From NCBI RefSeq assembly GCF_000006405.1, contig NW_003206658.1:980474-1044473 (forward strand): 64,000 nucleotides of DNA, given 5' to 3'. The translations under genes and the position numbers were made by a program. The notes beneath the pieces were generated by a model, which was given only the letters and a program-made list of their open reading frames with translations, ran no database searches and was not told the DNA's origin. Shown in pieces: positions 10,241-56,362 of the stretch; the stretch's first letter is position 1, and the number at the start of each line of letters is the position of its first letter. This DNA is from Perkinsus marinus ATCC 50983. Its lineage: Eukaryota; Perkinsozoa; Perkinsida; Perkinsidae.

Positions 10241-10341
10241 TTTCTTAATCGAAAGATATCCTTCATGTATATTCTAAAATGAGCAGCAGCAGCAGCAGCA
10301 GCTGCTCATCATCGAGCCCCCTTGGTAGTCTTATTCCCCAA

Positions 10342-16315: not shown

Positions 16316-17852
16316 ATGACATCATCTGGGAAGAAGAATCCACCACCTATGCCTGTGATTGAGGTATTAATAGCATTATCATACAATACATCTTTATATT
16401 ATTATCAGGTCACAATGCTTACAGCAGATCTCATTAAATTTACTATATTCAATGCGAATCAGGCAATAGCCAATGCATTGAGAAGGATTATGATAGCCGA
16501 GGTAGTAATGTATACCAAGCCATCCTCCTCTTCCTTTATCATTATCATCACCAAACCTAGGTACCGACATTAGCTATTGATACGGTTACTATTGAGGAGA
16601 ATAGTAGTCCTCTATTCGATGAGGTAGTATCATTGACAATCACGTCGTTATGGGAGATATTCTCATGTAGTTCGTAGCACATCGTCTGGGGTTACTGCCT
16701 ATCAATTCTAAGGAAGTGGACAGTTATAGTGATCCTAAGGATTGTCAATGCTACTCATCATGTCCTAACTGCACTGTTAAGTGAGTTAAAGTTTAAAGTA
16801 GAGGCATTATAAATGTCAATGTAGATACACTCTAGATGTTATAGCAGAAGATCATGGTGTTACTGATGTAACACATTTAGATATTCAACCAGTTGATCAG
16901 GGTAATACCATTAACATTGTTATACTGCTAATATATGAGTATTGATAATAGGGACATCGATACCAGAATCAAGAAGACCATTACCAGTACCCTTATGGGA
17001 TAGGACTAAGACTGAAGAGGAGAATGTACTATTATTTGTGTTACTCATCTGCTCATCATCATTATGCATGTCTTAGAGGCGTAATGGTATTGTTATTGCT
17101 AAGTTGCGGAGAAATCAACAATTAACGATGCATATGGAAGCACGGAAGGGTGTTGGTAAAATGCATGCTAAATGGAATCCTACTGGCACTGTTGCTATCC
17201 GAGTAATGATGATTATATGAATTCTTATCTTATCGAATAATATTGTTATTCAGTACGAGCCTGTGATAACAATAGATAGAGCAATAGAGTATGAGAAGCT
17301 ATCAGTAGCTGAAAGGAAAGCTATTGTGAGGTCATGTCCTAAGAGGGTTTTGGATTTGGATGCAGCTGATCGTATACAAGTAGTGAGGAAGGATCTATGC
17401 GAGTAGGATAGGGAAGAGGAAGAAGCAGAAGAACAGGAGGAATGATGATGATGATGATAGGGAACTATGGTTGTTGTCAGTTTTTGCGATGAATGTGTGA
17501 CTAAAGCGAACTATGATTTCAAAGCTAAAGGCATGATTACCGTTAAGCAACGGACTGATGTGGTAAGATGAAGGATATATTGACTACTGCTTTACCCACT
17601 CCTTAAGGTACACTTTACTGTTGAGTCTACTGGTGCTAGACCACCAGAGGATATTGTTATGGCTGCTATCAAGGTCTTTAAGGAGAAGTGGATAAGACTT
17701 CATGAGGATCTTGGTAAATGGGAACAAGGTGATAAGGGGGACGACGCAGGTTCAATTCCCAGTAGCGACATTAAATTATCTCAGAGTTTGGTCAACCGAT
17801 AGATCCCGCAGCAGCAGCAGATGAGGATGATGATGATCAGATGGGAGGTTGA
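16316..17852 (+). CDS. RPB3: DNA-directed RNA polymerase II subunit RPB3
   Basis: Subunit that dimerises with RPB11 to form the alpha-like assembly platform of RNA polymerase II in the nucleus. Exons in order give the start MTSSGKKNPPPMPVIE, the alpha-motif LIKFTIFNANQAIANALRR (16416-16500), an AIDTVTIEENSSPLFDE exon, FVAHRLGLLPINSKEV with a zinc-type C.C..C..C cluster (DCQCYSSCPNC), then KLRRNQQLTMHMEARKGVGK with HAKWNPTGTVA. These match the RPB3 family at the expected positions. A later exon has a second Cys cluster, LCDFCDECV, created by an intron that ends just before TTTTTGC near 17489. The protein ends in a short acidic tail at 17852. Introns number about eight or nine and are small. 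The one at 17729-17784 contains a tRNA-like fragment. Start chosen as the Met nearest the usual N-terminal length. Confidence 0.85.
17729..17784 (+). other. RPB3 intron with tRNA T-arm-like sequence
   Basis: 56-nt intron (GTGATAAG...CTCAG) whose removal joins EQ to EFGQPIDP in frame. It contains GCAGGTTCAATTCCCAG, an exact B-box match on the plus strand, followed by TAGCGAC and A, the layout of a tRNA 3' end. No 5' half is present. Confidence 0.7.
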
Positions 17853-18212
17853 CTTATTACCAATACGTATCCGCAGCTAGAGTGTTACGTTATAGAGGAG
17901 AGGTCTATGTATCCGTCGATCTACAGAGTGCTGCTGATGGACAACACTGTGCTAATACATTCTCTACAGTGTCGTGGTTAAATTCTTCCTCAGTGGTTAC
18001 TAGGATCTATATTCTTAGGGACCCTCTCACTTGATATAAGCCCATAATAAATAGCTGTTCTTGGTATCTATAGTAATACGGAGATATGTAGTGTATATCA
18101 TTCCTCATCATCATCATAGCCTCCTCCTCCTCGTCGTCGTCGTCGTCGTCGTCGTTATGATCGTAATCATCATCAGTTTTGTATTATTCACTGCATCATC
18201 ATCATCATTAGC
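17853..18212. other. Intergenic with GTC/CGT microsatellite
   Basis: No gene seen. It contains CTC/CTT and TCG runs (a perfect TCG run near 18130-18155) and a CATCATCAT run just before the next start codon. Confidence 0.5.
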
Positions 18213-20035
18213 ATGGCATCACTCCTTATTGACCCTTTACCATCAATTGAGTCATTGAAAAGGCATCTTTGTGTGAGACTAGAAGACCATGATGATGATA
18301 ATAAAGTGGTATTCTATTCTGATACTATTGATGCACTTGAGAGATGTATAACCGGAGTTATGGGTAAGATACGTCATTTGCCATTGAAAGGTGATGATAA
18401 GGAGGAGGAGTACACTAAGGGTGGCGGTATTATAGGATGTGGTCGAGAGTCGTCGTCTAGGATCATGATTAAGGATCCTCGACGAATGTGGAATGATCTC
18501 ACTGGTGATGATTTCGATGATCCCGATAAAGTAACAGGTATTCGATCGCTCATTCGTTATCCTCTCAAGTCGACAGATGTCGATCCTTTGATCGTGGAGA
18601 TTAACCTTTCCTGGCCACTCTATAATGGTATGCATGAAGTATTCATGCATCAAGGCAAACTCTTCACGAAAATGCCAATACCCAAGTCTTTGGAAATGTA
18701 TACCAATGCCATCACTCATCATAAGGAAACCTTTAAGTGTGTCCCTGTCCATTGTGAACACTATCTACCAGGCCCTTTGCCTACTCTAAGTGGAATATGG
18801 CATCATCAAAACTGGAGCTATTTCTGGCCATTAGTACACTCAGCAAGAGAGATATCAAGATCAGCAAAGCTTGGTATGATAGGATGGTTAATGGGGGCTC
18901 GACATACTGTGATAGCCTTCGATACAGACTACACTGATCGGAAATATCGTGGGGCCTGTCAGAAGGGGTGTCCAGGTGTAGGAGCTCAACTGTTACTAGA
19001 TAAGACGGCTGATGGTGGTGTATGGTTCCGATATCGAGCCTTCTGGGAGAACTTTAATGAAGAGGGACATGAGTACGAGTCCAAGGGGGATAATATTAGC
19101 CTTGCCGATGTTTGGGAATCTACTCGACAAATTGATAATGGTCTTATGGTCGATGGAGGAATGACCATTGATCGATGCTGTCAGCATTTTACAAAGGGAG
19201 TACTTCAAAAGCTAATTGACAATGGTATGGTAGAGAATGCCGATAACAGTGAGTTGAAGCTGCGGAATAAGGAGATATTTGACGCATTGGATCGGATAAG
19301 AGCGTAAGGAATACTCATGTCTCATGTGTAGTAGTGTTCGACCTCAGTAAGCATCCCTGGTGGTATCCCGAGGAGACTTCCCATCAAAGGGCGTCAGAGA
19401 GATGGCAAAAGGATCTTATGAGTATATATAATAGTGGTGGCATTTCTAGTTACATTCATGAGTTGATATCAAGTTGGCGACTCAGAATTAGTTTGTACCA
19501 AATACCAGATTTCTGACGTTGCTTTATGTTCCTTCCCCTCTCCTTCTACTCGTTGCGTTATAGTTATCATAGCCATTAGCAGAGTCGGGTCGAGAGAGAT
19601 AATATATGCTGAACGCGAAGCTGATGTTGGTGAAATAATGTATTCACTCGCCAAGAATGGGCCCTTCTATTGTGGTTATCGACGTTGCTGTTTGTCGTAT
19701 TGTTGTTATCAAGCGGACTCTTACACTACTATCTGATATAATACGCTATGCGTGGTGATCTATCACAGACTAGAGGTGTGACAGTAATTATAGAGCTTTT
19801 AGACGGTAAACTCCTACAATAGAGGAACTGATGAGCACAGGTATGGGATGGGTACCGGATTATTATCAAACTTACACTTGAGGCTGAGGGACTGGTATAA
19901 CGTTGTTAGGGTTTCTCAAGCTCATGGTGTGGTGAGGGTACTAACCTTAAGATCCATCGTTTCCACTCATGGGTGGTGATCGATTCTGTGATAAATGGAT
20001 TCTTTTTGCATCGATCCCTTAAACGCAACCGATGA
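18213..20035 (+). CDS. Unrecognised protein with one long well-supported exon
   Basis: I do not recognise this family. An ATG at 18213 opens a 364-codon frame, the longest open exon between 7 and 37 kb. It is rich in aromatic residues and Cys: PLYNGMHEVFMHQGKLFTKM, WHHQNWSYFWPLVHSAREIS, MIGWLMGARHTVIAFDTDYT and a Cys/Gly segment CQKGCPGVGAQLLLDKTADG. Several downstream frames look like continuing exons: DLSKHPWWYPEETSHQRASE (19337-19500), IIYAEREADVGEIMYSLAKN (about 19590-19680), SNLHLRLRDWYNVVRVSQAH (about 19850-19931) and FHSWVVIDSVINGFFLHRSL ending with TGA at 20033-20035. The last join needs a 20-nt intron at 19932-19951. The stop at 19305 would have to be spliced out, and I could not find an in-frame junction there, so the gene might instead end at 19307. 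The conserved-looking Trp/His pattern suggests an enzyme, but no catalytic signature is recognisable. Confidence 0.6.
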
Positions 20036-20547: not shown

Positions 20548-23500
20548 TCAACTATAGAGGACAGGAGGTGGCCATATTTCTGGTGTATATTCGCCTGTCC
20601 CAGTGAAAGCCTCAGTACCTGCATAAGCATTATCCTAACGAGTTACATCATGCACTTACATCCTATCAATCCATCGTTACTATACTCCTCGGGATTCCCG
20701 TCAATTTCCCATTGGGAATTATCATTGCATCGAACCGGTAACGTATTGGCGATCTTTAGTGTACCGAATCCTTGTTGGCATTTAACCTTGTATGAAGTTC
20801 CCGAGATAAAGTCTCCTGTTTGTTGACGACTTCGTATTGAGATATGAGCCTGAGGGAAGCTGCTGTGTATGGAGTTACTTGTTGCTGCCTCCTTTACCCA
20901 GTCGGTTGGGATATCAGAAGCCTTACATCTCGGGGGTTGGCACATGGGGTAACTGATTGATATCATCATCATCGTAACTTATCTCATCGAATGCCTTACC
21001 GTGTGGTCTGTGGATCGCCTATTTGGAAATTATTGGGCCCAACTGTGTGATAGTGACCATCAGCTCCACACTGGACTGAGACTTTGTCGGGGGTCCATCG
21101 ATCGGGGCACTGGTAAACTCCTATGATATATAAGATATACAGGCTTGGAAGATATAAGTAACTCACTACTTGGAGTTGCATTGTAAGCCTCTCGTGCTGC
21201 AGGACCAAGTAGTGTACCATGGTACATGATAGTAGGCAGAAGGGGGCAAACCAAAGGGACCTATGATGATAATAACATACATGGTAGAGAACGAATATAT
21301 CCCATACACATTCAAAGTCGTCCATTGTAACTTCCAAATCGCCTTCTGTACTGCACGAGATGGTACCAGTCCGGCGGCCCTAAGGACAATAAGAATCGTA
21401 ATCATCTCTTCGCAGACTGTTCATGGAAGTTCAAGTATCCTCTCATGAACCACCACCACCACCATCTCTCCCTGTTGACCTCTTTCTTAGGTGTATAACC
21501 AAGATTGCATTTATAGTCCACACTATCATTCAGGAGTAGCCTATCGCCGGCATTGTAGCCTGTGCTTGGTACCTATGAGTCCTTATATGAGTACACTATC
21601 AACATCACCATCATTCAACTTCACTACCGCATTGACTATATCAGGTAGCTTTTGTGCACACCTTGGAGGAGTGCATGCTAAGGGAGGCTGCAACCTCGAT
21701 AACCAATCACCATGATCACTGTCTCTGATACCCCAACCATGGATCCCACCTGAATAGGATAATATGCAGAAGAGTGATGACTGTAGGAGTAGGTGGAGAA
21801 GACAACGACGACGAGCAGCAGCAGCAGCACCTACATGTGATGAGCAACGTTGCCTTTCCTCCCTTAGCCATGGCCAGGCCATTATGTGTAGTGCCCTCCT
21901 CACAAGTGTACTTCACTTCATCCTTGTAGGTGAATATCTTAGGTCCACTTGCCTGTGATACCTCCCCATGAGGGACCTCAGGAGCTTGACCGCATTTCTG
22001 AGGTCATTACCAGCATGTTATCAGTAGCAACAGTTGTGATAGTTATGATGATAACTTACGACGAGCTCACATGGAGGTGGGTGGGCTTCTGGGGATAGAT
22101 TCCCGTCTGCATGGCATTGCTGTTCGAACTTAACCTCCCCTTCTACTCTTCCACCTGGATTGAAAACACTCTCTAGAATTCGATATGGCATCCCCCAGCT
22201 GCACCTAGAGTGTGCCCTTCACTGCACATGTACACGACTGTGGTCGGGCTCTCGACAATATCGCCTGGACTCACGCCTTGTGGGTATGTTAATCTACCGT
22301 TCTTGATTGGTAATAGAGGCCCACAAGGTTTAATGCCTTGACAGGGATCATTCTACGGTCAGATATAGGAGGGTGGCTCACATCCGGAGGTATATCCATG
22401 AGCCCACTGAAAGTCTCCCGAGCTACTGCATTGGATGGTGTATGTGCTGTGTTCCCTATTGGTGCCCGCAACATAGGCTCCTGATCGACACAAGGCTACC
22501 TTTACATTCCAAGAATGGTAGTAATAATATCACCCTCATCACAGGCAAAGTCCATTCTTTCACCGAGCCGTAGTATCTAAGAGTAAGACAATAAGCTTAT
22601 GCACTGTTCACCAGAAGCAGCTACCCTTGTTGTTATAACTGCTGTGGCGAATTGCTTCATCTCCTTGGGGACATCGTTGATATCACCTAAGCAGTAAGTA
22701 GTATTAAACTATGAGCAGGGCAACGGCGGCAGGGTATCTTCATTACCACATATGACCGGCTCGCATCGATCACTCCCTCTGTCATACTCCCATACACCAG
22801 TTATGGTGCAAGCAGCAGTAAACTGATGCCGAGTCTTGTCCCCACCAAGAGCGTAACCGGGAGCACCTTTCATAGTTCCCTACTGTCGTCGGGATGCTAC
22901 TACTACTTGAGAGTGCTCACATGCAAAAGGGACTTTCGATGGATAACGGTAAGTCATGTTCTTTCCAAAGTGGGTCTGGTGAGCATCATCGAATCGCTCG
23001 AGTTGTCCACATTTCCGTGCAATACCTAATAGTAACGGAATAGGAAGCGAGTAGAGACAAGTGAGGTATTACATGGCGATCGGAGGGGGACATCCCAATG
23101 CACGTGACCATCAATCTGACAATTCATTACAAGTTCATAGTGATCACATCATTCCTTAACGTACATTGATGCATTTAACTTCAAAACCCATGGTCTGCTC
23201 AGTAAAGCCGTCCAAACAGACAAAGTCTATACTCTGGCCCTCAGCAACACGGGTGGGATCTGAGGCGCGCGAATAGAGGAAAGTACTGATAAGAAGAATG
23301 CTTGAAATTACTAACGTGTTTCACAGGCTCTGCATTGGCTATGCTGGGAAACTCGCCACAGTGTATGGGTTGACATCGAGGTAGGGGGTAGGAAGGATGG
23401 AACTTACCGTCAGAACCACATTGGATACTTATCGTTTCTGAATGAGAACAGACATACTCCGGGATAAATATATCATAAGGCCCTGTGGCGCAACGGTAGC

Positions 23501-24240
23501 GCATCTGACTCCAGATCAGAAGGTTGTCCGTTCGAATCGGGCCGGGGTCACTTTCTCTCCCTATCTTACTCGGTCCGTCATCTTCTCCATTTGCCGTAGT
23601 ATGCTCGTTACACGTATAATCAACCTAAGGACTTCCTGATGGTAGTGTAGTTCCAAGCGGATACCTCACCTTTTGCGGGTACACGACCGACTCTCCGATC
23701 TTGTGTGATGTTGGATACGCATTTGGTAGCTCGAAAGGAGCTCCGCATTTCACTGGTTTGCCTGACGAAGAAAGAACACCAAGAACATACATGGCGATTC
23801 AATCTTGCCCCTCTCCGTACATTCTGTTATGTCAACTCTCACAGGACGGAAGTTACCACCAATATGGCATCGATAAAGGACCCTCCGTGGGCCTGTACCG
23901 ACACTGAGACAATCTCTTATAGCTACACAGCCTACCAAGAACGAGACCATCAGCAGTGTGGCCTTCGTCACATGCATATTCGGCCACGGCTTCGTGAGCA
24001 AACACACCACCCGGCGGTTGATCCTAAATGATGATGCCCAGTCACTAGAGAGCGACAAGCCACTCACTCCAACAAATTGAGCTTTGGGCACCTCCGGTAG
24101 CAATGAGCAGGACCGATGCTCACATTTGCCGGATGCTGAAAACATAACACCATAAACCTTTGTTAATGAGACATAGCGACTCACATAGCTCGCAAGCGGG
24201 ATCGTTGCTCATTGCCATCCACATCGGTATGACAATAAAG
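20548..24240 (-). CDS. Multi-CCP (sushi) domain protein, probably secreted or surface
   Basis: Minus-strand gene of many small exons with the four-cysteine CCP/sushi spacing repeated several times. Examples are SIQCGSDGKFHPSYPLPRCQ with HCGEFPSIANAEPV (about 23300-23460), VYQCPDRWTPDKVSVQCGAD (about 21050-21120), KYTCEEGTTHNGLAMAKGG (about 21860-21915), STYTIQCSSSGDFQWAHGYT (about 22395-22450) and YKVKCQQGFGTLKIANTLPV (20700-20800). The last join (IGC to TEAFTGTGEYTPEIW) ends in TGA at 20548. CCP modules normally form extracellular binding surfaces, so export is likely; I could not find the signal peptide, and the 5' end between 24240 and 24560 is unresolved. One intron, 23483-23569, is almost entirely an antisense tRNA-Trp gene. 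It is the upstream neighbour of nothing related: NAA15 lies next on the same strand. Confidence 0.6.
23479..23550 (+). tRNA. tRNA-Trp (CCA)
   Basis: A complete 72-nt cloverleaf. Acceptor GGCCCTG pairs with CGGGGTC; D-arm GCGC-AACGGTA-GCGC; anticodon arm TCTGA-CTCCAGA-TCAGA with anticodon CCA; variable AGGTT; T-arm GTCCG-TTCGAAT-CGGGC; discriminator A. All stems pair, with G-T pairs only in the acceptor and T stems. The A and B internal promoter boxes are present. It lies antisense inside an intron of the CCP-domain gene; the host intron's acceptor AG falls within its 5' acceptor strand. Confidence 0.95.
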
Positions 24241-24597: not shown

Positions 24598-27500
24598 TTA
24601 CAAGAGAGCACTAAGATCCTCCTTGAATACCTCAGCTGTCACACCCTCTAACCCATTATCATCAATTTTAGCTACTGCATCGGATAGTCTCCTTGTCTCC
24701 TCCTCAATCGATGATGCTCCAAGAGCTTTCATCCGTTGGAGGCAAGCTAAGGATTGTAACCACTTCTTACGTCGGATTGATACGTCGAAACAGAGGGACT
24801 GGGTCTCAAGCCAAGTTGCACACTTTTCTGATAAGACCTGCAACAGCAACAGCAGCAGCAGTTAGTACAGTAGTCTACGAGTACCCCGTACTTCACAGAT
24901 GTGCATGCATCTATCAAGAGGATCAGCAACCGCAACAAGCTCGTCACCCTTGGCTCTCTCTTCTTCCATAGTAAGACCCGTTGCCTTCATGCCGAATGCT
25001 CCTGAGAAATGCAAGGCGTGGGAATCGAACCTGGAGCCTCCGCCAATCCCACCCTCAAGCTTTTTGGAGTTATCCTGGGTCGTGGTCGGATGCTGATCAT
25101 GCTGCTTTCTCTTCTTCTGGTGCTTCAGACGCTTCCGCTCTGCTGCCGATAACTGCAGAGTATTAACTCTCATTACTAATACTATCTCAACCCCATCAGA
25201 GATGACCCTGTCCAAATGACATCATCGACACACTTCTATCCTACTACACCACTTCAGAATCCTCATTGGGCGAGAACACATCCGAGATAACTACTATGGA
25301 TGGCTAGCAGTAATAGCATTACCTTAGATCCATTCTCCTTATTCTCTTCACTCTCTGCCTTAGCTGCTGCAGCTGCTGCTGCTGCTGCTGCCTCCTTCTT
25401 ATCCATCAACTTAGTATAACACCTTATCATACCAGCACTCGCTTCACGATAGTAGATATGCTGCTCAAGGCTATCCTCCGTCTTTAGGAACTCCACAAAC
25501 CTGATCACAGCCACAGTACTCTCCTATTACGATGATGATGCCCACGTCCGGAGTGTCATCTTCCGCATGCAGTAGGTGGCAAAGTCGAACTGATCGTCTC
25601 GTATGTCATCGAACTGCTTCAATACGTCATTGAATCGTTTCAAAGCCATACTGTAATCCTCTCGAGATTCGTATAGCTGACCAAAATAAGCAAATATCGC
25701 TTCGCTCCGCTAAACCCATCTACACTACTGACCATAGCAGTTCTTATCTCCCACCACATACACTGCATGTCGTAGAGGTTTGATGTCTTCGCTGTATCAT
25801 TCTCTTTCGCGAACAGCATCATCTGGGCGTGGGCCTACAACATTGAACGACGTAGGTGCAAAGACTACATGCTGGTAATGATTTACGAGAGGAGTGGTAT
25901 GACGACCGAGACGATTACCATATATTACCGTATCTATGTCACCCTTCCTGAGCTGTGCCTTCACACTCAATGTGTTCAATTGTCTATCGGCCAGATCCAT
26001 CTTCCGAGCCTTGTCCATATACTCTGCAGCCTCATCGAAACGCTTTTCATGTTTTAATCTAAGATGAAACATTCTTCACAGTGCGTTTCCAAGATATGAT
26101 ACTACATCTTAGATGCCGATACGTATAGGTCGATGCAAGTTGGGCTAACCTCCATACCCCTTTCGATTAGCTTCATCTGTTGTAAGATACACGAAAGATA
26201 CCTCCCTCTACCAAGTAGGCACTATTATTACTGCAGCCTCGAAGCTCCCAATATGATCGAGATGATTAGCCATCAACAGGAAGGCGAAGCAAGCATAAGT
26301 AGGTGGGTATTTGGATATCTCCGCTCTAACCTTGGGCACTTCGGCAGCTGCCTCACAACGAGCTTGAGCTGATGCCATCAGCTCCTCGCCCTCTGCCACG
26401 CATTGTCGCAATATACGATCAACGCTCAACTGCTTGCTGGAACTCTGCTTATAGAAGACACGGAGTAGCCTGAGGGTAGCCCATAATGCTGTGAAAATAT
26501 TCCCTAGCATTACTTCTGGGTGGAGGGTACCCCCTTGCAGAGGAGCTTAGTAACGTATTCCTTCAGTCTACCCTCGAAACGCTCACCAGTCAGAAACAGC
26601 AGTACGCATTTTGTGATGGTCGCGGAGGCGAAACCTGAAAAGACGAGCAAACGCTCATTGCTTCGCTCCGCTAGAGGATGAGCACCACGCCAGAGCGTAC
26701 CTGTTTCCTTCTTCACTTGAGCATTGAGGCCATCAAGTGCCTTCAACACTTCCTGCTCTTCCTCTATGGTGAGATCCCTCATCGGGCGATAGAGTGCTTT
26801 ACAACCCCCTTTCACGAGTATACCTAAACATATTCAAGGTCCTATCAAGTAGGATACGTGAGCGCTCAAGTCGGCACTACTTTTCTTGCCAGCATTCAGT
26901 TCTGCTGCAAGCTCGACCTCCACGGCCGCAGCCATCTCTCTGTCTTCAGGCTTCGGCAGCCAGCCACGAACCTGCAAATACGCTTGTCGAAAATGCCCCG
27001 ACTAGGGATCGAACCCGGATGACTTACCCTAGCACCACCCTTAGGGAGGAGGCCAGAGTTCACCGGCCAACAACACTCCTTAGATGTAATGTTAGGCCAG
27101 AAAGTAGAAAATCTGAAGAATACAGAATGTTATCCTAGGGACTCGACCCAGCGGCCATCCTCGAGACAGCTACGACTTCCACCATTACACTATTCTCCCA
27201 GTATTACCTCCCTTCGTCAACACAACTGAGCCATGCAAGAACGTAGCTTTCTTGTTCCGGGTTGTAGTCAAGGATGAGTTCCTTCAAAGCCGCCTCAGCC
27301 TTATCCAACTTGCCCAAGCTCATCGATAAGCGAGCGATACTCTCCAATCTCGTCGTACCGTCCACGATCTCTCTGAGTAAGAGAACAATACTACAAGTGA
27401 GTGGGACGAATCACCCCCAACATCAACAAGCTCTGACAGCTTTGGTCAAAGACCAATCGTCAATTGTTCACTGGTAGAGACCTCAACGAGTATTGTCGAG

Positions 27501-28541: not shown

Positions 28542-29141
28542 AAGGTAGATGTATGGAGACGAGGAAGAAGGTATACTGACGTGCTAACACTGCTAATGCA
28601 GTCCCTAAGCCATGTGGTCGCAACTGAATAATTGCTGGAAAAGCGCATGGTGCCGGGATCGAACCTGAGATAGTGTTGACCTCGCGCGCATTATGAATTC
28701 CACCAGCCCTGTTGAGGTGCGTCTCCGTCTTCTCTTCGGATGGCTGCCTACATCACTACCGACCGATTGACTCGGGAGGACAGGTAGGTGGGATAGTCTT
28801 GATACTGTTATAGTAGCAGTGGTCTTGGTCCTTTCCGATTATAATTTTATGAGCATTTTTGGCTCAGCTACTCTACCATTTTTCCTCATCTTGTATGTCG
28901 CATTGTCCTGAGTAAGCCTCGTATTGATCCCTGCAGTATCCAACTTGAACAGTCGCTCGAAAATGAATACGTACAATTATCATCCGTGTTAAGTATTGGC
29001 ATGAGTTTCTACGACATCACTCACCTGTAGTAGTATATACCATGCTCATATTCTAGTGGACCCTGCTATCATCGACTACAACAGCTGCTCTCTTGCTATA
29101 GGTTCATTATCGAAGGTGTAGCTAGGAGGAGGAGGTTATCT
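28542..29141. other. Divergent intergenic region with tRNA-like fragment
   Basis: It lies between the NAA15 start and the next plus-strand gene and probably holds both promoters. At about 28645-28668 on the minus strand is CAGGTTCGATCCCGG followed by CACCATGCG, another T-arm/B-box match without a recognisable 5' half. Confidence 0.45.
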
Positions 29142-32977: not shown

Positions 32978-33220
32978 AGTCGTGTCCTCTTAATGCTCTT
33001 GTTGATGTGCGTATCATTGCTCACTTGAGTTGTAGTGATAATAGTATGCCTGCCTGGATGAGTATAACTGGTATAAGATAACTCCACAGACAGACCATAG
33101 TTGAAGGCCTTGAGCTGGATACCAAGTCGTGATCCAAAGGGTATAGGGCATTGTGGGTGCATGCTGGCCTTTTGGTTACATTCGAATAGAGATTGTTGGG
33201 AGTGTTGTACTAGTTCATTC

Positions 33221-43111: not shown

Positions 43112-44991
43112 TTACCATCCCCACCAATTCTGCTGAGGAGTATTGTTCCACCAGTCACCCCACTGCTGCCCACTGCCACCTTTACCATTATCGGCACCCT
43201 TACCACCATACCATCCCTTTCCGATATCGCCGTTAGATGACTGCTCAGCGCCCCCCTTGCCACCCCAACTGCCTTTGCCCTTCACGTTGCTCTGTCCTTC
43301 ATACCATCCTTTCCCGAAATCACTGTTAGGTGTCCACTCAGCGTAACCCTTCCCAGCCCAACTGCCCTTGCCCTGCATGGCATTCTGTCCTTCATACCAC
43401 CCCTTCCCGAAATTGCCCTGAGGACTACCCCCTTGGGTACCATAATCACCCCAATAGTACATCGGCGGTGGCGGTCCCCATCCTCTAGGGGCGCCCCACT
43501 CCCAACTAGGAGCTTCCCATCCTTCCCACTGAGAGCCCTTTCCATATCCCGAAACCTCAGAAGTACCCTTGCCGTGATTCGAACCCGCGCCCTTTCCTTT
43601 GCCCTTTCCCTTGCCTTTACCCTTGCCCTTCCCCTTGCTGACTGCAGGAGGGGGTAAGTCACGCATGTGAGCCTCAGCATCAAAGCTAGGTTCATTGGCA
43701 ATTGCTCTAGGCGGAGAACTCTTCATCTCCTCATCGTCAGAGTCCCTTCCAGCATCCATTATAGCATTACCACCTGAGAAACACCAATGAAGCACCACGG
43801 AACTACTCCACCGAAATTTACCCTCATGCCCCCAATCGTCTGCAATAGCCACCATTTTCATCCGACTAACTACCGCGTACACCGAAGGGCCTGTCGTGTC
43901 CGGACCTAGCGAGTATTCGCTCTCATCTACAGGGTTCTTCGGATACACCAAGTACATCGGGGCTGCTGTCTAAGGGGCACAAGAACTACAATATCCATTT
44001 GGCCCACTCACCGCAAAGGAACTGCAACCGAGTTATTGTGGCGGAAAATGAGGATTCCCTTCTAATCAAGGTTTAAGAAGGAATCAAATCTCCCGTCGCT
44101 TTGATAGTGATGGGAATATTTTAGCTGTTGCAACCGTACACAGAGAACTACATCGAGATATAACAGAACCTCTCGAGGATTCTATATCCCTTGTCAGCCA
44201 TTATGACTACCTGTCCAAACGTCTCCACTATCATGCCTAACACTTTCCGGTTCTCGTCACAGAGAACGCTCTCGACATCAAGGGCAAGGTCAGAGCTTGC
44301 TATATCATCACCACGGACGACGATACACTTCTCAACAATCGAATGGACAGTACCTGTGGTCCGACCATACACCGACCCGGGTTCAATCCCCAGCAGCTGC
44401 CACTTCCCACATTTCAGTACCTATCTTCCGAATTTCTTCACTGTCCGGAATAGTATCTTCCAAAGTTGCGAGCGATCCGATGACATTCTCCTCTTCTTCA
44501 TCCATAGTGTCAGATTCATCATCCTCGATAGTCTGAGACGAGTCGCGCATGGAACGGTATGAACAAAACTCATTCACATCAAGATTATTCCCGGCTAGGA
44601 CCGCATCCAACATGGACTTCTCCTTTTGATATTCCACAGGCTTGCCGAGGGGACTATCAGCCTTGGCGGCCCCATCAGTCTAGGGAAAACGACAGGCATA
44701 TCCTCAGCAATACTGCCTAACATCACCTACCTCTTCCTTCTTCTCCTCCATCACAGGAGTCTCAGTTACCGCCGATTGGGTTTGTGGCACTACAGGGGTC
44801 TCCTCACTATCACTGTCATCAGATAGATCATCATAGTCCTGACACTGTGCCTCCTTCCTCAACAGGAGGTTCGGCGCCACAGCCGGCTTTGAACCACTAC
44901 TTGATGGCATAGCTCTGAGCTCCACCTGAGGCCACGGAAATGCTACTCCCTTACGAGAACGATTAGCCAACCCTAATACTAGTCCCTTCAT
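43112..44991 (-). CDS. NAF1: NAF1/GAR1-domain protein (H/ACA snoRNP assembly factor) with Gly-Lys-rich tail
   Basis: Nuclear factor expected to bind the dyskerin/Cbf5 pseudouridine synthase during H/ACA snoRNP assembly. An acidic N-terminus (DDLSDDSDSEETPVV and DDESDTMDEEEENV) precedes the Gar1/Naf1 beta-barrel: GTVHSIVEKCIVVRGDD, ESVLCDENRKVLGMIVETFG and PMYLVYPKNP. The splice from EEIRKIG to TVHSIVEKC removes the 44354-44420 intron. After another intron comes DAGRDSDDEE, a (GK)8-like run, then four imperfect repeats around FGKGWYEGQ, GKGSWAGKG and IGKGWYGGK, ending NWWGW at 43112. The acidic N-terminus favours NAF1 over GAR1, while the Gly-rich tail is GAR1-like (with Lys instead of Arg). 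An upstream exon could exist at 45000-45257. Confidence 0.75.
44354..44420 (+). other. NAF1-like intron with antisense tRNA T-arm-like sequence
   Basis: 67-nt intron of the minus-strand gene; frame is kept when it is removed. On the plus strand (antisense to host) it reads CCCGGGTTCAATCCCCAG, an exact B-box match, followed by CAGCTGC. Both the intron and the following exon start with GTACTG. Confidence 0.75.
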
Positions 44992-44999
44992 CGGTGAGT

Positions 45000-45257
45000 A
45001 CCAATTCCGAACAATGATGCAACATAAGAAAATGCCGGCCTAACTTAACCTCCATTGACTGGAGTCACTCTACCAAAATCGTCCCTCAGTTGACGATAGA
45101 ACATCAAAGGCATTCTCAAACATTCCTCTAACCCTTCCGGATGGAGACTTCACAGTAGTACCTCGGCCATCTTTTGGGCGAATAACAAGTCATCCATTTC
45201 TGTTTGCCCGTCGACGACGATGACGTCATCTTGATGGACGGCGTTTTGGGAGTCCAT
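45000..45257 (-). CDS. Small candidate exon(s), unrecognised
   Basis: An ATG at 45257 gives MDSQNAVHQDDVIVVDGQTE followed by MDDLLFAQKMAE, an acidic sequence of good composition, with a possible donor right after. Further open sequence (RVRGMFENAFDVLSS) lies at about 45085-45145 in another frame. It could be the first exon of the NAF1-like gene or a small separate gene. No family recognised. Confidence 0.25.
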
Positions 45258-46493
45258 TTGTTCAGTTCAAGTCAGAGAGGAAATGTATACGTTGACTGAA
45301 GGTAGATCTAATGGCGACATACGCTGGCCTATGGAATTGCAACATGATTTGTGTCTAGCACAATCTACTACAAGACCATATGATGTGATCCATCCAACAC
45401 GAGTATCATTTACCTTTTGTGAAGCATCACGATTCCAGACATGGTAAAAACGAAAGGTACAGGGATCGAACCCGGACTCTCCCCGATTGAGTTGTTGGAG
45501 GGCACCATGATGAGACTGTGACCAAGTGCCCACACAATTTAGGCAGAATGCTATCCTCCACACAGAGAAGGTATCATCTACATGAGCAAACCATGAGTCT
45601 CCAACTCGTCAATTTCGGATTATGATCTGGCTGTGACTTCCGTGACGATATTGCGTACGCAAACGTGATGTGGTGGGCGAGCGCAACCTCTACAGAGCAT
45701 CTTATGGCAGTTTCTAAGATGATGATGTTACTGTCAACTCCCTGAAGATATCTATCTCGGTAGTGCAGTGATTAGTTCGAGTCCTAGTGCATGAGTATCA
45801 TTCTGTAACCATCTCAGCATTCATTTGCCTTATTTTTAAATGCCGCGTGGTTACGCACCCTCTTCAATCCTCTTCCCTACCTATTGAGTTCGACGGCAGT
45901 GATCTCAGTATAATGACATAGCCCGCCGTCACTCACGATCTCTGCTGTTAGCTGGTATTGGACATTATAGTGTACTCTAGGAGGATGTACACAAGCTAGA
46001 TGCTGCTTCCGTGGGTTCACTGGTAACCTCATCAGGTTAAAGAGAGAGCTTGGAGTTGGCATTAATACAGGCGAATCTGAGCAGCGCTCAGTGAGCACGG
46101 TAAGTATGCGGATGAGTAACCTAACCAGCGGGATCCTCCTATCATGCCCACCACGGGCTCATCAGAGTATCATCATTCGTATCTACCACGGCTGACTAGA
46201 AGGTACATCCATGACCTAATTCGTGTAACAAACACCACCAAGGTTTACGCCCTTTTGATCCATCGGATGTTAAGCTAATCCTGGAACTCAGAACCCATAT
46301 TATCATCCATTTCCAGTTGTATATAGCGCTTCATGGGGGATCTCAAGTTACGAAATTCGGTCATTAAACTCTCCTTCGAAGCCTATATGAGATCCAAGAT
46401 GAAGAAATGGCAGGTGCCGGGATCGAACACCGGACCTCTGTTTAGTCGTAATAATACTCTAATGCACGTGATAAAGGATTAGTCTATCCGTAA
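45258..46493. other. Intergenic with tRNA-like fragments
   Basis: No protein gene supported. At about 45455-45480 (minus) is CCGGGTTCGATCCCTGT and at about 46408-46435 (minus) is CCGGTGTTCGATCCCGG followed by CACCTGCCA, both T-arm-like without a pairing 5' acceptor. A weaker plus-strand one (TTAGTTCGAGTCCTAG) lies near 45770-45790. Confidence 0.45.
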
Positions 46494-49400
46494 ATGTCCA
46501 GTACTAAAGCTGACACCGCAACACCAGCAGCGACCAAGGATCCAGAATGCCCGTTGAACGGTCATCATCATCGTAAGAAGGTAGGCGCTGCCAACCCCAC
46601 CTTCGAGAAGCTCTTCGATGATGGTCGTCCGGCGATCCTGTCGGATGCTGATAGACTCAGTTATGAGACGTTAAAGCTGTATGGCTCAGGTGATAGGGGA
46701 TGTCGCTGGTTGATTTTATGTCGGCATGGTATGCATAGTGTGAGTGGCGATGAAAGTTATGAATATCAAAACTCCTTTAGTCTACCTGTGATAGCATCCC
46801 TTATCAGCCATAAGAGATGCTCTCCAAAATGATATCCAAGCGAGGATGCTCCCGGAGTTGAACAGAGCAGGTGCTTTCGAGGTACCCTCGGATGGGCTGC
46901 TTTACTATCATCATAACTACTCGCGGTTGATCAGTCTACTGAGCATCTGGCTGAGCTCGTTGGGACCATGAAGGCTACTATATATCGATCTGTGGCCCAT
47001 ATGGTGATGGACGAGACGTTTATTGATAGGATAGCTTCCGAGATGGATAAGGGCACCTGTGACGCTGTGTCCAGCGGACATGTAGTGAGCCATATCGCTG
47101 TACTCTTCAACAAGGAGGGTGTAGCAGTGTGAATGCTGAGAGAGTATTGTTGTAGCAGAAAGACGGCGTATAACTGACCTGTGAGCTTCGTATCCAGGCT
47201 TTATATCAGGGATAGTGTGCGGCTGTGATCATTAGACTAAGATGGTTTGGCTGGCTTAGGTAAGAAGCGCATTAGGGGCGGCTGTGGACACCGAACTGGA
47301 GAAGTCTCTTTGCAATGAACTTGAACATCGGCTCGTTCCGGCAATGCTTGATCGTGTGAACTCCTTGAGGTGAGTGGCTTGGTGGGCATATTTCGTATCT
47401 TGCAAGTTTAACCTTGAGATACCTTCTGGTTCCAGGTTGACTCAGCTGATGTGCTTCCCAGCACACAAGAAGCACGGGGGTCCCGGCTGCTCGGTTTCCG
47501 TCTATGGCTCTGTCATCGTAGAAAGGTGCGTTAAATGGCTCGGGCTTCAGCTAGATCGCAAGTTCAGATGGGGCACACACGTGGCAGCGACCCTTGCTAG
47601 GATTGAGGGTGCTTATCACACAGTCAAGAGACACATCCACAGCACGTGGGGGCTTTCTACCGGATGTAGCCTTGCGCCTTTTCGATACAATCGCTCGGGG
47701 CTATCTCTTTCATGGAGTTGGCTGCTGGGGCGTCGCCTTGGCACGGCAACGAGTTGCTGGCCAGCTTAGGTCGATTCAAGCTAAGCTCTATAAGCGCGCT
47801 CGACGCATCAGCGGGCGCACTCCCACTGCCTTCTCGTGCCGTGTCGGTCCCCAGTGCACTCCCTGGGATGACTTGTGCCTATCCTTGTGCGTGAAGCGAA
47901 GGGTTCAGTGGCCCGAATTCTTCGAGCAGCATCCAATCCAACACATTGCCAGGGATGTTGTGGGTTCGTTCCCCGTTGAACGCCCTCTGGATGCGGCGTC
48001 TCACCCTAGGGTGTTCCCTTTGGTTGTGGGAGCGCGGCATTCTACCCTGAACTGTGATACGGCGGAGGTATATTGTGATGGCTCCGTGACTCCTGGACGC
48101 TGTGCAGGCTGTGCCGTTGCATGGCTGAATCAGCGAGGTACTTGGTCAACACTAGGTCTCAGATTGCCACCGCACACTACTCCTGTACAAGCGGAGCTCG
48201 TCGGCATCCTCCAAGCGGCGGAGTCGACTCGATCTCGGATGGAGAATCCCGAGCTTCACATCTGTATTTTCACGGACTGCAAAAGGGCGATTGATCGGCT
48301 AACGACAGGAACAGGAAACCGACACTCTGTCTGTGCATTAACCCTTCTCGTAATGAGGCGTCTGAGCAACCTGAAGGCTACCCTTGAGCTGGCGTATACT
48401 CCTTCCAAAGGTAGCATCGGCAACCTGAAGGCGGATGCGGCCGCGCGGGCTGCCTCGGTTCACGGCATTGGCGCTGACCTGCAAGTACCGTTTACTCGCG
48501 ATGCTCTGGAAGTGGCCATGTCCCGATGGCTGCACGGTCGGTGTGATGCGGCTTTTGACTCGGAGGTTCAGTCGCTAGGTCGGTCCTTCCGGTACTTCGT
48601 TCCCACGGCCTCCTCTCTCCGGGTTCTCTGTGAACTTGATGCGTATAGGGGAGTGTGGAAGGTGGTAAGTGGAAGGAACGTGCTACGATATTCCCGCAAG
48701 AAGGTCGATGGTGGATCGGGTGTATGTCCCTGCTGTGACTCTGGGGAGGAGGAGGACTTCCTCCACTTTCTCTTTGCCTGTCCCCACTGGCAACAGTACC
48801 GCACTGAGCTACAACGTATGATCCAGCTTCGCGGAATTGCATGGCCTCCCCCCTCTGGGGATGTGCTACTGAGGGACAAGCCCCTTGCTGCGGCGCTAGA
48901 GCGGTACATCAACCTTACGAAACGGCTGGGGCCTGCATGGTGACTGTCGCCCCCTCGGATTTCTAGATAAATGGCTGACGTGAAGGCGGCTTAGTGGCCA
49001 TCGGGCCGAGCCGCGTCCAAGTATCGAGAAGAAGAAGAAGAAGAAGAAGGTTCCAGGTTGAAGGTCGCAGCGGATCAGACGTCCCAAGTGGAGGAACTCC
49101 GCAGAGCTTTGGATTCTTCTCGTCAAATAGTAACGATCTCTTCGGCCTTCGGATTTTTCACAATTCGCCGGCTCCTTTCAGATTTATCTATTGTCTAATA
49201 AATGCAAGGTTTTGGAGACCCGCGTTCGGAGCCTTGCACAGTAACTCTACGTGTTAGCTAGGCTGAAGAAAGATTACTTCCACAACTTCAGGAAGCAGCA
49301 GTTCTCGAGTAACGATACCGATGTGAAGCTAGCAGAAGCAGTCAAGCAGTTACGAGGTCTTGATAGGGTTACTGAAACTGGCGCCGGTTCGAACCCGACG

Positions 49401-50722
49401 ACTGGCATTAATTCAGAGCCAGCGTTCTGCAAGGGAGTTTGACACACGCGCGCTCTCGCCGGATCTGCTCACCCCCTCCGAAGCTGAGATTGCTGATCGG
49501 GTAATGGAGGAGACTTCCCTACATACCACACTTCGTTAACTTAATGAAGGTGCTCGAGCAAGTGCGTGGACAAGTCATAAGGCCGATGCTTGCTCAGATG
49601 AGAGAACTTCAGAAAGTGAGTTGGGTGGGGATCTTGGTGAAACTATGATACTGGTAACGTGGTGAAACTCTCCTCTACTACTCGATAGGTTGTTGGATCC
49701 ATCTCACTCGCAACTGTTTTAGATAATTGGAAGTAGGAATGCTGCTAATAGGGCAGGGGATAGCACATCATCGAGCCCTATGTTGTCAAGTGGAGATCCC
49801 GGGTTCTACTCCCGGTGAGAGTATTCCATCTAGGTTCATCCGCTGCAGTGAGACGACAGACGAATAGCCTCGTCGATGAAGGGAAATGGGATGAGGCTTT
49901 TCAGCGGGTCGTTAGTCATACATTACAAGAGGTGGGTACAGTAGTGGTTATACTGCTCTGAATATTTGATTAACACGTATGTGCACGCCGCCATGTGCAT
50001 GCGTGCATGCCAACTCTTGACGGACTTCTCCATGGATTCTGATGTATCTGGTAGGTGGAAGACCTGAACGTTGGGTACCAGCAGCGATGGAATGAAGACC
50101 TGCTGCAAGAACTGTTGGACATGACCTCCTCACAGCCAGAGTTGTGGTTAAGTCATCCTTTACCAGGCACCACAATCGTTCCCCTTTCTACTCGACCCGA
50201 TTTAAAGATCAACTTGAGTGGGTCGAACTAGAAAGCCTACTCGGTATCGATCTTCTATCATCAGTCGAAGCATTAGCGTCGCAACTGAAGACACCAGCGG
50301 CAGATATAATGGTCACTGTGGTTGACTCCAAAATGGATTGGTTACGCGAGGTGACCCTTTCCTTGAGTAGCTCTTACATCCGTGGTGATACCACTCATTC
50401 GCCTCTTCTCGTAGTCCTTCCCCTACCAGGTATGCCTAATATGATAGAACGACTCGCTAAGGTGGTGAAACAGATGAAGGAGTTGGATCAGGATCCTCAT
50501 AGTTTTGTGAATTCTAGGACTATTCGAGATCCCGATACAATAGTAAGAGCTGTCGATTTCACCTTAGATATGAAAGTCATCTGCATAGGCACAAAAGCTG
50601 TTGTTGTCGAAGCTTGCCTTAGTTACGCGGTGTATAGAGGCTCTCATAAGATGGTTGTTGTCTCGTGCACTCGCGTGAATGTACGGGACGATAATTATCT
50701 TCATCATAACCATCCATCATGA
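46494..50722 (+). CDS. EDC4/Ge-1-like mRNA decapping scaffold (C-terminal region) interrupted by a LINE in an intron
   Basis: The start at 46494 gives MSSTKADTATPAATKDPECP. Helical exons follow: LAELVGTMKATIYRSVAHMV, VDTELEKSLCNELEHRLVPA ending VNSLR (47369), then LKVAADQTSQVEELRRALDS (from 49057), KKDYFHNFRKQQFSS with AEAVKQLRGLDR, SAREFDTRALSPDLLTPSEA, VLEQVRGQVIRPMLAQMREL, TNSLVDEGKWDEAFQRVVSH (about 49840-49930), and a C-terminal part with VEALASQLKTPAADIMVTVV and SKMDWLREVTLSLSS to a stop at 50722. The coiled-coil followed by an 'EGKWDEAFQ' helical region resembles the EDC4/varicose C-terminus, which scaffolds the Dcp2 decapping complex in the cytoplasm. The WD40 domain of EDC4 is not seen, so the assignment is tentative. 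The intron 47370-49056 holds a LINE; introns 49368-49416 and 49790-49833 hold tRNA-like sequence. The end may lie earlier, near 50540. Confidence 0.45.
47428..47440 (+). repeat. Upstream target-site duplication of LINE
   Basis: GGTTCCAGGTTGA, identical to 49049-49061 on the other side of the LINE. It includes the original 3' splice site (TTCCAG/GTTGA) of the host intron. Confidence 0.8.
47441..49048 (+). mobile_element. 5'-truncated non-LTR retrotransposon (LINE) with RNase H
   Basis: About 1.6 kb, more GC-rich than its surroundings, same orientation as the host gene. It begins inside the reverse transcriptase C-terminus (KWLGLQLDRKFRWGTHVAAT, 47530-47590), shifts frame near 47650 at a G run, then continues as a 449-codon frame. 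That frame contains a full RNase H core: AEVYCDGSVTPGR (D), QAELVGILQA (E), CIFTDCKRAID (D) and GNLKADAAARA (D), followed by a Cys/His motif (CPCCDSGEEEDFLHFLFACP). The stop is at 48943. The 3' end is a (GAA)7 tail at 49028-49048. Perfect 13-bp target-site duplications flank it. Truncation and the frameshift mean it cannot move on its own. It belongs to the RNase-H-bearing LINE group (I/R1-like); clade not determined. Confidence 0.9.
49049..49061 (+). repeat. Downstream target-site duplication of LINE carrying the splice acceptor
   Basis: GGTTCCAGGTTGA immediately after the (GAA)7 tail. The AG of TTCCAG at 49055-49056 is the acceptor that keeps the host frame (VNSLR to LKVAADQ). Confidence 0.8.
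49368..49416 (+). other. EDC4-like intron with tRNA T-arm-like sequence
   Basis: 49-nt intron (GTTACTG...ATTCAG) joining RGLDR to SQRSAREFD. It contains GCCGGTTCGAACCCGAC, an exact B-box match, followed by GACTGGC and A, in host sense. Confidence 0.75.
49790..49833 (+). other. EDC4-like intron with T-arm hairpin
   Basis: 44-nt intron joining SPMLS to SSAAVRRQ. It contains CCGGG-TTCTACT-CCCGG, a perfect five-pair T-stem with a seven-base loop, then TGAGAGT and A. Host sense. Confidence 0.7.
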
Positions 50723-53326: not shown

Positions 53327-54288
53327 GTTGTGCTTGTCTTATTATGTTCTTGGGGATGGATATTGACGCTTCTATTTTCCTCTAATCATATGGATTAGAT
53401 CTTATTCACTATTGGCGTGCCGCGTCGCCGTCATAAAGCTTATCAATCTTGTTTCATCATTGTGATAGGGGTTACTGTGCTCATCACCGTGTTAGATCTC
53501 TATCACCGTAATCTCAGTAGAAAATGTTATTTCAAGCACATCGGATGGTATTTACACACGTTGTAATGCATCCGTGCTTGCAGAGTTGATTGAGTGTTGT
53601 GTTTGCCATTCAAGTGCCGGTTTGTAAGGGTATATAAGCGTTTGTTGTCATGAGGTTCATTATTCGTTGGTGTTGGTTGGGGGTTTTGCCAGATCCCAGT
53701 GGCCATACAGCTTGCACTGTAGGTGTAAGATATGAGCAAATCGTCGGTTACTTCGTGATAGTCGACAATTATCTAGTGGGGTATTCTGGAGTCACGCTGT
53801 GGTGGTTGAGGAGGTATTTTCTTCGTGTCTCCGAGAGACTAAGAGGGTCTGTCAATACACAAGCGATCCGGGTTCAGTTCCCGCTAATCCAATCTAGCAA
53901 AGTTGACAAAATGGCTCGTTTCTGACGGAGCGCAGGGTATTCGATCGAGAAAGGTTACTATTAAACTTTCCTGGAGTTCAAGCCTAGGAAATTTCTCACG
54001 ACGTGTTTATTTAGCGGGACTAAGAACGGGCTCAAGAGAGTGTTCTTGGGAACGCTATCAACCTAGCCTACTGAACGGGCCACAGGTCCTGAACCTGTTC
54101 CGTAGCACCCAGACGCCGTGCTTATCGGTATATTGGTCTACGTTGTAATTGAGCAGGTAAGGAGCATTCCACACGACGGTTAGTATCAGGATTAAAGGCA
54201 ATGTAGGGTGTGATGCATATGAAGATGAATGGTAGAGTGGGGAGTATAACCTGACCTACTTCGTATCTCATGTGGGGAACCTCGAGAT
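53327..54288. other. Intergenic with tRNA-like fragment
   Basis: At about 53864-53894 is CCGGGTTCAGTTCCCGC followed by TAATCCA, a T-arm-like hairpin ending just before an AG (TCTAG); a second, CTGGAGTTCAAGCCTAGG, is at about 53970-53987. An 81-codon frame at 53903-54148 has no family resemblance. The MATE gene promoter should lie here. Confidence 0.4.
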
Positions 54289-56362
54289 ATGTTTGGCCTT
54301 AGTTTGACGATTGAAGTTGTTCCAATGACCGCGTCTGGTGAAAGTCGCCTTGAGAAGGCGAATAAGAAGTCGCCATTTGTACAGATAATGCAGCTGGCCA
54401 TTCCTAACATGATCAGCTTCCTCGTCATGTAGGATTAAGGGCCTTCATTTGTGATTCGTGGAAGGAATGGTATGGAGTTATTCATCACAGGTACTCTATA
54501 TTCGTTATTACTATCTTCTTTGTATCGGCCACCAATGATTCCCATATGCTTGGCGCGATTGGTCTCGGATCAGTTATCCAGAACGTGTTCGGATTTAGTA
54601 TTGGAGTTGGACTCATGTCTGTAAGTGACCGGATGGTGGACTGTGTGTTTCTCCACGAGCCGACCCTGGTTCAATACTCAGTGGAGCGTCTTATATTCCT
54701 CACAACGGACACTGTGCCCATAGGTTCTGGACACTCTGGTCAGTCAGGCAGTTGGTGCTGGGAACCCTCATCTCGGCCTCATCTACTTCAATCGTGCACG
54801 TATTGTCGGCACTATCGCTTTCGTTCCTTGCTTCATAGTCATGTAATACACTTCACATCCGTCACGCGCCACGAAACTACCTCTCAGGTTCTACACTGAA
54901 CCTATCCTCCTTTGGATGAACCAGGACCCGCTCACGTCTAAGCTTGCGGCGGAGTGAGGCACTATTCAACCCTGTCATCTCCGACGGCTCAATTGTCAGT
55001 TACGTCCGTGGCATGAACTGGGGTCTCTGGCCCTTTTTTATGTACAACGCCATGTGCAGCTTCTTGAGGTTATCACCGCGCTGACGGACATAATATCACA
55101 ACTCTTGTTGACAGGTCGCACAGACTGCCGGAAGCCCCTCTCTACGTCAATGCCATCACAGGCTGTGGACATGCCCTCTTCTGTTGGCTCTTCCTATTCA
55201 AGTATCTCCTTCAACAGCTCCTCTTGAGACATCCTCGATTAAGCGTCTCAGGTTCCATTTCGGTGCATATGGTGTTGGTATTGCCATGACCTGCACTCAA
55301 TGGGGCCGGTTCATCCTTCTTGAGCTCTATGCAGCTATCTGGCACCCCGAGACCCACGCTCACGGTTGGACTCCTGAGAGTCTCCACAACCTGTGGGAGT
55401 TCGTGGCTTTGGCTATCCCCTCTGCCCTCCTCATGTGGAGTGAATGGTGGGCCTACGAGGTCCAGGTAAGAGAACTCGTCCCCCTCTGTGCAGTATGAGC
55501 TCAATCAGTCGGTGTTCGCTGGCTGGGTCGGCCCGATGGCCTTGGCAGCTCACGTTGCCGCCTCCAACATCGTCTCCATCATCTACATGGGCCCTTGTGG
55601 AATCAGTCAGAGTGCCAGCGCCCTCGTTGGTGCGTTACTCACACTGTAAAGTGTTCCGTAATGATGACGCTTTCAGGCAACTCGTTGGGTGCCGGTGATG
55701 TTCGCACGGCCCATCTGTTCAATCATAAAATCATTCGAGGAACTCTCGTCTGCTTCGTCATTGTCGCCATCCTCATGTGCAACTTCCGTTACTACGTTGC
55801 CTATCTCTATAGCCGCGACTCTGCGGTAAAACCATAACCTTATTCGTCCTCCATCATATCCTATCACAGGTCCTCTCCATTCTTTGTCCCGCCCTTCTAG
55901 CCGTCTCTGTCTTCTGTATCTTCGACGCCATGCAGGCCTGCCAAGAAGGAGTTCTCAGGGGTTGCGCCCTCCAGGTTAGTCCTTCTACCATCTTCTGCCG
56001 ACCATGTGTCTCTATCAGGGCCGGGCTTCTACCTACAAACTCCTTGCCATGCTCCTCATCCGATTACCTCTAGGGTACTTGCCTCATCCCTCCCTGTCTA
56101 GCATTATCTTCTTTCAGTTACCTCTTCGCCTTCGGATGGGGACCTCTACCTGCTATGGGAGTCCCTGGTATCTGGTGGGCCTCTGTTGTTGGTATGGCCA
56201 TCACTTGTTCAGCGTAAGCTACTCCTATTCGCTTCATTGTTGATGTTTCCCATCAGTTACGGTGGCATCATCTACCGTTGTGATTTCAACAAGTGCGCCC
56301 AGGAGGCCCTCACCAGACGTGAGAAGGAAGAACAGTACTGCTTCAATATTGTTGGAACGTAG
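54289..56362 (+). CDS. MATE-family multidrug/toxin extrusion transporter
   Basis: Cation/drug antiporter of the MATE fold. The start at 54289 (MFGLSLTIEVVPMTASGESR) gives a short cytosolic head, then PNMISFLVM, spliced to FVITIFFVSATNDSHMLGAI. Family motifs: GFSIGVGLMS joined to VLDTLVSQAVGAGNPHLGL, FYTEPILLWMNQDP, LPEAPLYVNAITGCGHALF, MALAAHVAASNIVS and SASALVGNSLGAGD, the internal duplicate of the QAVGAGN motif. Twelve helices are plausible across about ten exons. The C-terminus YRCDFNKCAQEALTRREKEE is cytosolic. As written the frame ends VGT-stop at 56362. A 20-nt intron (56359-56378) would instead extend it to LKAARSPLLDEEAAGAGAAV with a stop at 56442, adding an acidic dileucine-like tail. 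Substrate unknown. Confidence 0.85.
54621..54723 (+). other. MATE intron with tRNA-like hairpin
   Basis: 103-nt intron joining GVGLMS to VLDTLVSQ. In it, CCCTGGTTCAATACTCAG at about 54664-54681 is a B-box-like word, enclosed by CTCCAC and GTGGAG arms that can pair. Less exact than the other cases. Confidence 0.5.

Follow-up and report, generated by a model that had tools for sequence, protein, structure and literature searches.

The stretch of DNA analysed here raises the question of why short introns should contain pieces of tRNA. The stretch (the window) covers 64,000 nucleotides (nt) of the genome of Perkinsus marinus, a marine single-celled parasite whose genome comprises 54.46 Mb in 347 contigs. 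The phosphate transporter encoded in the window has 79% identity with a P. marinus sequence and 83% with one from P. chesapeaki, values that indicate a Perkinsus and, judged on this protein, a species distinct from both. A preliminary description of the window had reported about eleven exact matches to GGTTCRANNCC, the B-box motif of the tRNA T-arm, where about one was expected by chance, and had placed T-arms within ten proposed introns. We found that the motif belongs to a 36-nt unit that is copied within the genome. Evidence taken throughout from sequence, namely protein homology across junctions, a gene finder, splice scores and reading frames, places the unit in short spliceosomal introns. 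The best explanation, which we favour by a modest measure, is that a dispersed fragment derived from tRNA or a short interspersed element (SINE) colonises short introns and then drifts.

The window contains 12 exact matches to GGTTCRANNCC, compared with a mean of 0.69 and a maximum of 4 in 100 dinucleotide shuffles, which bears out the excess originally noticed; an exact match is present in seven of the ten intervals first listed. Genome-wide, the motif occurs 3482 times and the reversed pattern 651 times, and the longer pattern AGGTCNCNGGTTCGATNCCNGG gives 142 matches (SINE copies included) versus 0 for its reversed control. A weight matrix trained on 27 matches outside the window, used to score window sites in bits, found 14 window sites of at least 18 bits and none in 20 simulated windows; sites of at least 12 bits are expected at 1.2 per window. 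Two of the 12 exact window matches fall below 18 bits (40213 at 16.7 bits and 44885 at less than 10 bits). That chance or base composition makes the motif is hardly credible: although the flanking profile is absent at 21 of 82 sampled exact 11-mers, about a quarter, such an origin of the excess was rejected on the shuffles, the reversed patterns and the simulated windows.

The genome-wide sample consisted of 83 matches, the 12 in the window and 71 among the first 100 places listed, which lie on contigs C1, C5, C6, C8 and C9. The 29 listed places left out were on C2 (8), C3 (3), C10 and C11 (1 each), C5 (2), C6 (1, a tRNA) and C9 (13, comprising three at the contig start, two of them tRNAs, six palindromic repeats and four others). 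L063 on C6, whose central 51 nt are the same as those of L001 on C1, was dropped, leaving 82 loci; this pair, identical over 51 nt around the B-box, probably represents SINE copies. Leave-one-out scoring of the flanks divided the 82 loci into 59 strong units, two tRNA genes (L005 and L045, excluded from subsequent counts) and 21 chance-like matches. Provided that the sample holds, the proportion of 59/82 would correspond to roughly 2,000 to 2,500 strong units among the 3482 genomic matches.

The 59 strong sites align ungapped across 43 nt, and by profile alignment the shared unit is 36 nt long and equals tRNA positions 44-73 plus a T-run. In it, AGGTC is followed by a T-arm whose core is mostly GGTTCGATCCC, and then by an acceptor strand that is free in part, G/A-C-A and the T-run, so that the tRNA acceptor-end layout described earlier (the 3' strand of the T-stem, 7 nt and then A), followed by the T-run, holds as a profile. 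We take the 43-nt alignment to be the counterpart of tRNA positions 44-73 and an RNA polymerase III (Pol III) terminator.

Recurrence elsewhere in the genome shows that the unit is a defined sequence and has been copied. Copies of the unit of locus L072, matching it over 35-36 nt with 1, 2 and 3 mismatches, were found independently on C241 (duplicated on C147), on C144 and on C312, and the flanks of L072 are not common to these three places. The unit of locus L066 recurs in two tandem genes for phospholipid-transporting ATPases (flippases) on C267, with 36/37 and 40/44 identical positions; L066 lies in a predicted intron of an unrelated gene, which shares the 36/37 nt with a flippase intron. 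These recurring units, the two that were followed up, show 91-97% identity at unlinked loci, and since their free positions agree too, they point to common descent and not to convergence. The unit is also found in a SINE family (including L067 and L040), in which a tRNA-like head holding the 36 nt is joined to a body; 40 copies, the query included, were scored and matched out of 141 candidates. The SINE head has a B-box and, by eye, an A box, and the intronic units lack the 5' half and hence the A box. The 3' end of the family is common to another repeat. Among the sampled loci, no match of a window unit extended past the unit, and no second copy of the window stretches 26972-27221 and 45250-45650 was found genome-wide.

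Eight unit-bearing introns in seven genes were supported by homology, the spliced product being contiguous with homologues across the junction. Two of these are in the DUS3 gene of the window. The 48-nt intron at 35203-35250 (plus strand; phase 0; AG|GTGA at both junctions; a stop in the unspliced frame) holds the unit in sense at 35206-35241 (plus strand, 26.5 bits), and the 59-nt intron at 35729-35787 (plus strand) holds it in antisense at 35747-35782 (minus strand, 30.2 bits). The others are in genes for GTP cyclohydrolase I (L086), DIM1 (L006), an AAA protein (L079, with a 2-residue gap beside the junction), the two tandem flippase paralogues (L149, whose product was used as the query, and L150) and an adenylate kinase 7/8-like protein (L002, with a short match across the junction and no Pfam match). 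The eight introns are 48-62 nt long, the unit making up 58-75% of the length, and they carry it in sense in five cases and in antisense in three, so the occurrence of both orientations relative to the host, reported previously, was upheld. In seven of the eight, reading on without splicing meets a stop or a frameshift. In sense introns, judged by eye, about 3-18 nt precede the unit and about 0-12 nt follow the T-run. A ninth case, in the MMS19 gene (L096, 69 nt), has a Pfam match on both sides of the junction; it was rejected for its poor splice score and for a frame that stays open without splicing.

An enrichment in introns over a control, which the preliminary description had named as a check, was found in short intron-like frames. 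At 28 of the 59 strong sites, the frame allows an intron of up to 62 nt enclosing the unit with a score of at least 10, the figure for displaced positions in the same loci being 10.6-10.7; with a score of at least 15, the figures are 18/59 and 3.3-4.3. This excess would put perhaps a quarter to a third of the strong units in short introns. The home-made gene finder is crude and labelled some homology-supported introns as exon or intergenic. These results support the presence of units in predicted short spliceosomal introns in either orientation.

That the fragments represent tRNA genes in decay, or pseudogenes, lying in introns by accident is very improbable. Some tRNA-like relics are indeed longer than the unit (near 27139 in the window, and at L047 and L075), and a complete tRNA-Trp lies inside one putative intron. 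However, sites are either near perfect or absent, with few intermediate scores, and no T-stem covariation was found in the 59 units, in which 72.5% of positions paired compared with 72.0% after shuffling. Comparison with tRNA genes, the earlier suggestion for finding the sources, gave best unit matches of only 13-23 nt among 30 tRNA loci covering few isotypes, the true tRNA genes L005 and L045 aside. With one tRNA in the window, short tRNA matches and an unpaired T-stem, full or decayed tRNA genes were rejected as the identity of the unit. Pairing at the shuffle level also means that the unit is not kept as an RNA structure, and conservation of the T-arm at the RNA level was rejected. It is improbable, too, that the B-box is kept as a binding site for TFIIIC, of the extra-TFIIIC (ETC) kind, or as a splicing element, and lies in introns because exons are constrained, although a sharp B-box, about 36 nt of conserved flanks and both orientations would fit such a role. 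In five duplicate pairs (L072/L144, L140/L142, L066/L151, L076/L148 and L075/L147), the unit shows 5 differences in 180 positions and the flanks 57 in 1817; without the L075/L147 pair, the values are 3/144 and 40/1402. L066/L151 has zero differences in both unit and flank, and the L142 copy has a broken B-box. Purifying selection on the unit was not seen in these five pairs, a small sample, and drift at about the flanking rate argues against a kept function such as that considered in the preliminary description. Near-identical copies, variable positions included, further show copying. Within these comparisons, L075 (C6) and L147 (C243) have near-identical flanks, and their differences cluster in the tRNA-like stretch, as if it were faster-mutating or converted. 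Four compared stretches of C6 and C243 are 95-98% identical and may be haplotigs or a segmental duplication; all four compared unit sites (L066, L072, L075 and L076) are present on both contigs, hence uninformative on presence or absence, and two guessed homologous places (L145 and L146) did not align.

More weight is due to the possibility, still rather unlikely in our judgement, that the unit is an introner, whose insertion into exons in either orientation creates introns from proto-splice sites of the target. Introns of P. marinus measure 39 to 1622 bp and are mostly below 100 bp, by the lengths quoted in PMC3101222. Without the 36-nt unit, the eight supported introns keep 12-26 nt, under that 39-bp minimum; a remainder too short for an intron suggests by its fit that the unit made the introns. 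The near-identical unit in introns of unrelated genes (that of L066 being predicted) is consistent with this, as are the junction repeats of 8 bp at 44354-44420 (the direct repeat AGGTACTG at both junctions) and, seen by eye, of 6 bp at 35203-35250. The share of unit sites with coding sequence on both sides is also close to that of random positions (8/59 versus 8.1%), and codon scores of the flanks alone do not separate the two. However, junction repeats are not general: repeats of at least 5 nt in tight geometry occur at 12 of the 59 sites against 5.8 in the control, other geometries are at or near the control, and no general target-site duplication was found among the unit sites. Nor were decayed units evident in 195 other predicted introns, a scan that left out introns over the central match of each sampled locus; six reached a score of at least 4, against 0.8 expected, and all six are in the window.

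The flippase genes allow the order of events to be considered. The two paralogues on C267 have 54- and 52-nt introns with the unit, and a paralogue on C237 carries, in the same position and phase, a unit-free intron of 67 nt, in which no similarity to a decayed unit was found above shuffles. The protein flanks of the intron are 82% and 60% identical between C237 and C267, the 60% including residues read into the intron. Pointing the other way, eight more distant matches cross the intron position without a stop. An intron at the same position without the unit indicates that the unit probably entered an existing intron. The simplest order, judged from these comparisons, would be intron first and unit later, the L149 unit being near-identical to that of L066 (36/37) while C237 and C267 have diverged. 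The earlier proposal of a tRNA 3'-half or retroposon source is retained for a copied, tRNA-derived element tied to a SINE head, but its suggestion that introns arise from this element is not supported by the sole datable case. L149 and L150 (C267:300430-306500) are near-identical rightwards from the unit and diverged to the left, as if a tract of gene conversion stopped there. A doubtful extension, to which we would commit ourselves only tentatively, is that a ~36-nt Pol III/tRNA-derived retroposon fragment is an introner, with the T-run as pyrimidine tract in one orientation and hundreds of introns in this Perkinsus to its account, the flippase case being a replacement or a parallel gain.

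Under the explanation that we favour, in which a tRNA- or SINE-derived fragment colonises existing short introns, the repeat, which is common to the SINE head and has been copied widely, would stem from a Pol III transcript resembling tRNA, of which it keeps the 3' portion. The unit starts sharply at tRNA position 44; its 3' end at the T-run is sharp as well and points to a template RNA terminated by Pol III. Copies would land widely; exonic ones would mostly be lost, and those in existing short introns would survive. Arrival of the unit would go with loss of old intron sequence, the intron staying at its usual 45-60 nt, and in sense copies the T-run could act as the pyrimidine tract. After arrival, the unit would drift without visible constraint. 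Several points weigh against this account. Plain insertion into an intron of at least 39 nt would give at least 75 nt, so loss of old sequence has to be assumed. The flippase intron is the single datable one, and the same site may have gained an intron in parallel, or C237 may have lost its unit. L140 (C241) and L141 (C144) share a downstream repeat besides the unit, which L068 has too, and 45 of the 59 strong sites share only the unit with other sampled loci. The 21 weak B-box sites are slightly above the control in intron-like frames (9 versus 5.2 at a score of at least 10, and 4 versus 2.4 at a score of at least 15), and the 48-nt DIM1 intron can be read straight through.

The remaining intervals of the window differ in their evidence. 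Of the ten introns proposed at first, both DUS3 introns stood by homology. The gene finder called 17729-17784, 44354-44420 and 35729-35787, and it missed 25002-25052 and 49368-49416 as well as the homology-supported 35203-35250. The last intron of RPB3, a gene whose identity was confirmed, is 56 nt long (17729-17784, plus strand) and holds the unit in sense at 17741-17776 (plus strand, 26.3 bits). A 67-nt intron at 44354-44420 (minus strand), in a gene confirmed to have a Gar1/Naf1 domain, holds it in antisense at 44372-44407 (plus strand, 20.2 bits); the Gar1 match reaches only about 4 residues past the 44354 junction. For NAA15, likewise confirmed in identity, the gene finder prefers a 56-nt intron at 26972-27027 (minus strand; unit at 26988-27023, minus strand, 29.3 bits) to the 26972-27221 given previously, a stretch that also contains the longer tRNA-like relic near 27139 (15 bits). 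A second NAA15 candidate at 25002-25052 (minus strand; unit at 25004-25039, minus strand, 30.2 bits) has splice signals; being 51 nt long and open in frame, it may be a read-through insert rather than an intron. In the gene previously called EDC4-like, an identity that was not confirmed (an 88-residue piece had no Pfam match), there is an in-frame 49-nt splice candidate at 49368-49416 (plus strand; unit at 49378-49413, plus strand, 26.1 bits). A 44-nt candidate with a weak splice score lies at 49790-49833 (plus strand; unit at 49794-49829, plus strand, 22.3 bits, one B-box mismatch). The T-arm assigned to a MATE gene at 54621-54723 is weak (12.6 bits, a level reached about once per window by expectation).

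The interval 23483-23569 holds a complete tRNA-Trp (CCA) gene at 23479-23551 (plus strand; ARAGORN; Rfam, 63.4 bits), antisense to a host with a putative 87-nt intron. The reading frame through this tRNA stays open, and the host around it resembles complement-control (sushi) repeats by eye, a 79-residue piece having no Pfam match. Units with no intron support are at 10211-10246 (plus strand, 21.4 bits), 28638-28673 (minus strand, 27.4 bits) and 45445-45480 (minus strand, 27.1 bits), and one with a B-box mismatch is at 46402-46437 (minus strand, 27.3 bits). The unit at 4777-4812 (plus strand, 21.3 bits) is antisense within a 749-residue open frame. A unit-like site in a Gly/Lys-rich open frame at 43558-43593 (minus strand), with 28.9 bits by the outside-trained matrix and 16.5 in another scoring, may be due to chance. 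Upstream of DUS3, a SINE-body-like piece at 34821-34889 (plus strand) matches C251:124442 and C319:74092, both members of the SINE family, and an open frame at 47555-48943 resembles by eye the RNase H region of a non-LTR retrotransposon, an element of a kind that could mobilise SINEs. Positions 1-20000 stand apart from the remainder of the window by a lower GC content (0.37-0.41) and by predicted proteins that are rich in Asp/Ser/His and contain simple repeats.

Several known systems resemble the unit in part. Like tRNA-derived SINEs, the Perkinsus SINE has a tRNA-like head, with the unit, and a body; in contrast, the intronic copies are the bare 36 nt, without 5' half, body or tail. ETC sites and SINE-borne B-boxes are likewise isolated B-boxes spread over a genome, but constraint was not seen on the Perkinsus unit. 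In the permuted or disrupted tRNA genes of red algae, tRNA 3' halves lie apart from 5' halves; the Perkinsus unit has far too many copies for such genes, and its T-stem is unpaired. Introners, as presented in PMC9860276 and PMC7789003, also place short sequences that are nearly the same in introns of genes unrelated to one another, and some known families have neither target-site duplications nor inverted repeats. Unlike them, the Perkinsus unit comes from tRNA, lies in introns in both orientations and has one host intron that is seemingly older. The invading elements in PMC9860276 look mostly DNA-transposon-like, the families with assignable features being described in that way, and the words 'tRNA' and 'SINE' do not occur in its main text. 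In a search that mostly did not extend to subscription journals, no literature was found linking introners with tRNA and the B-box, or SINEs of Perkinsus with introns, and for tRNA, retroposons and new spliceosomal introns only Alu elements turned up.

The origin of spliceosomal introns is an open question. If the unit does make introns, filling them in both orientations with a fragment of tRNA origin, it would represent a new RNA-based route to introns. Alternatively, Perkinsus would provide a clear case of existing introns that are overwritten while their position and length are kept.

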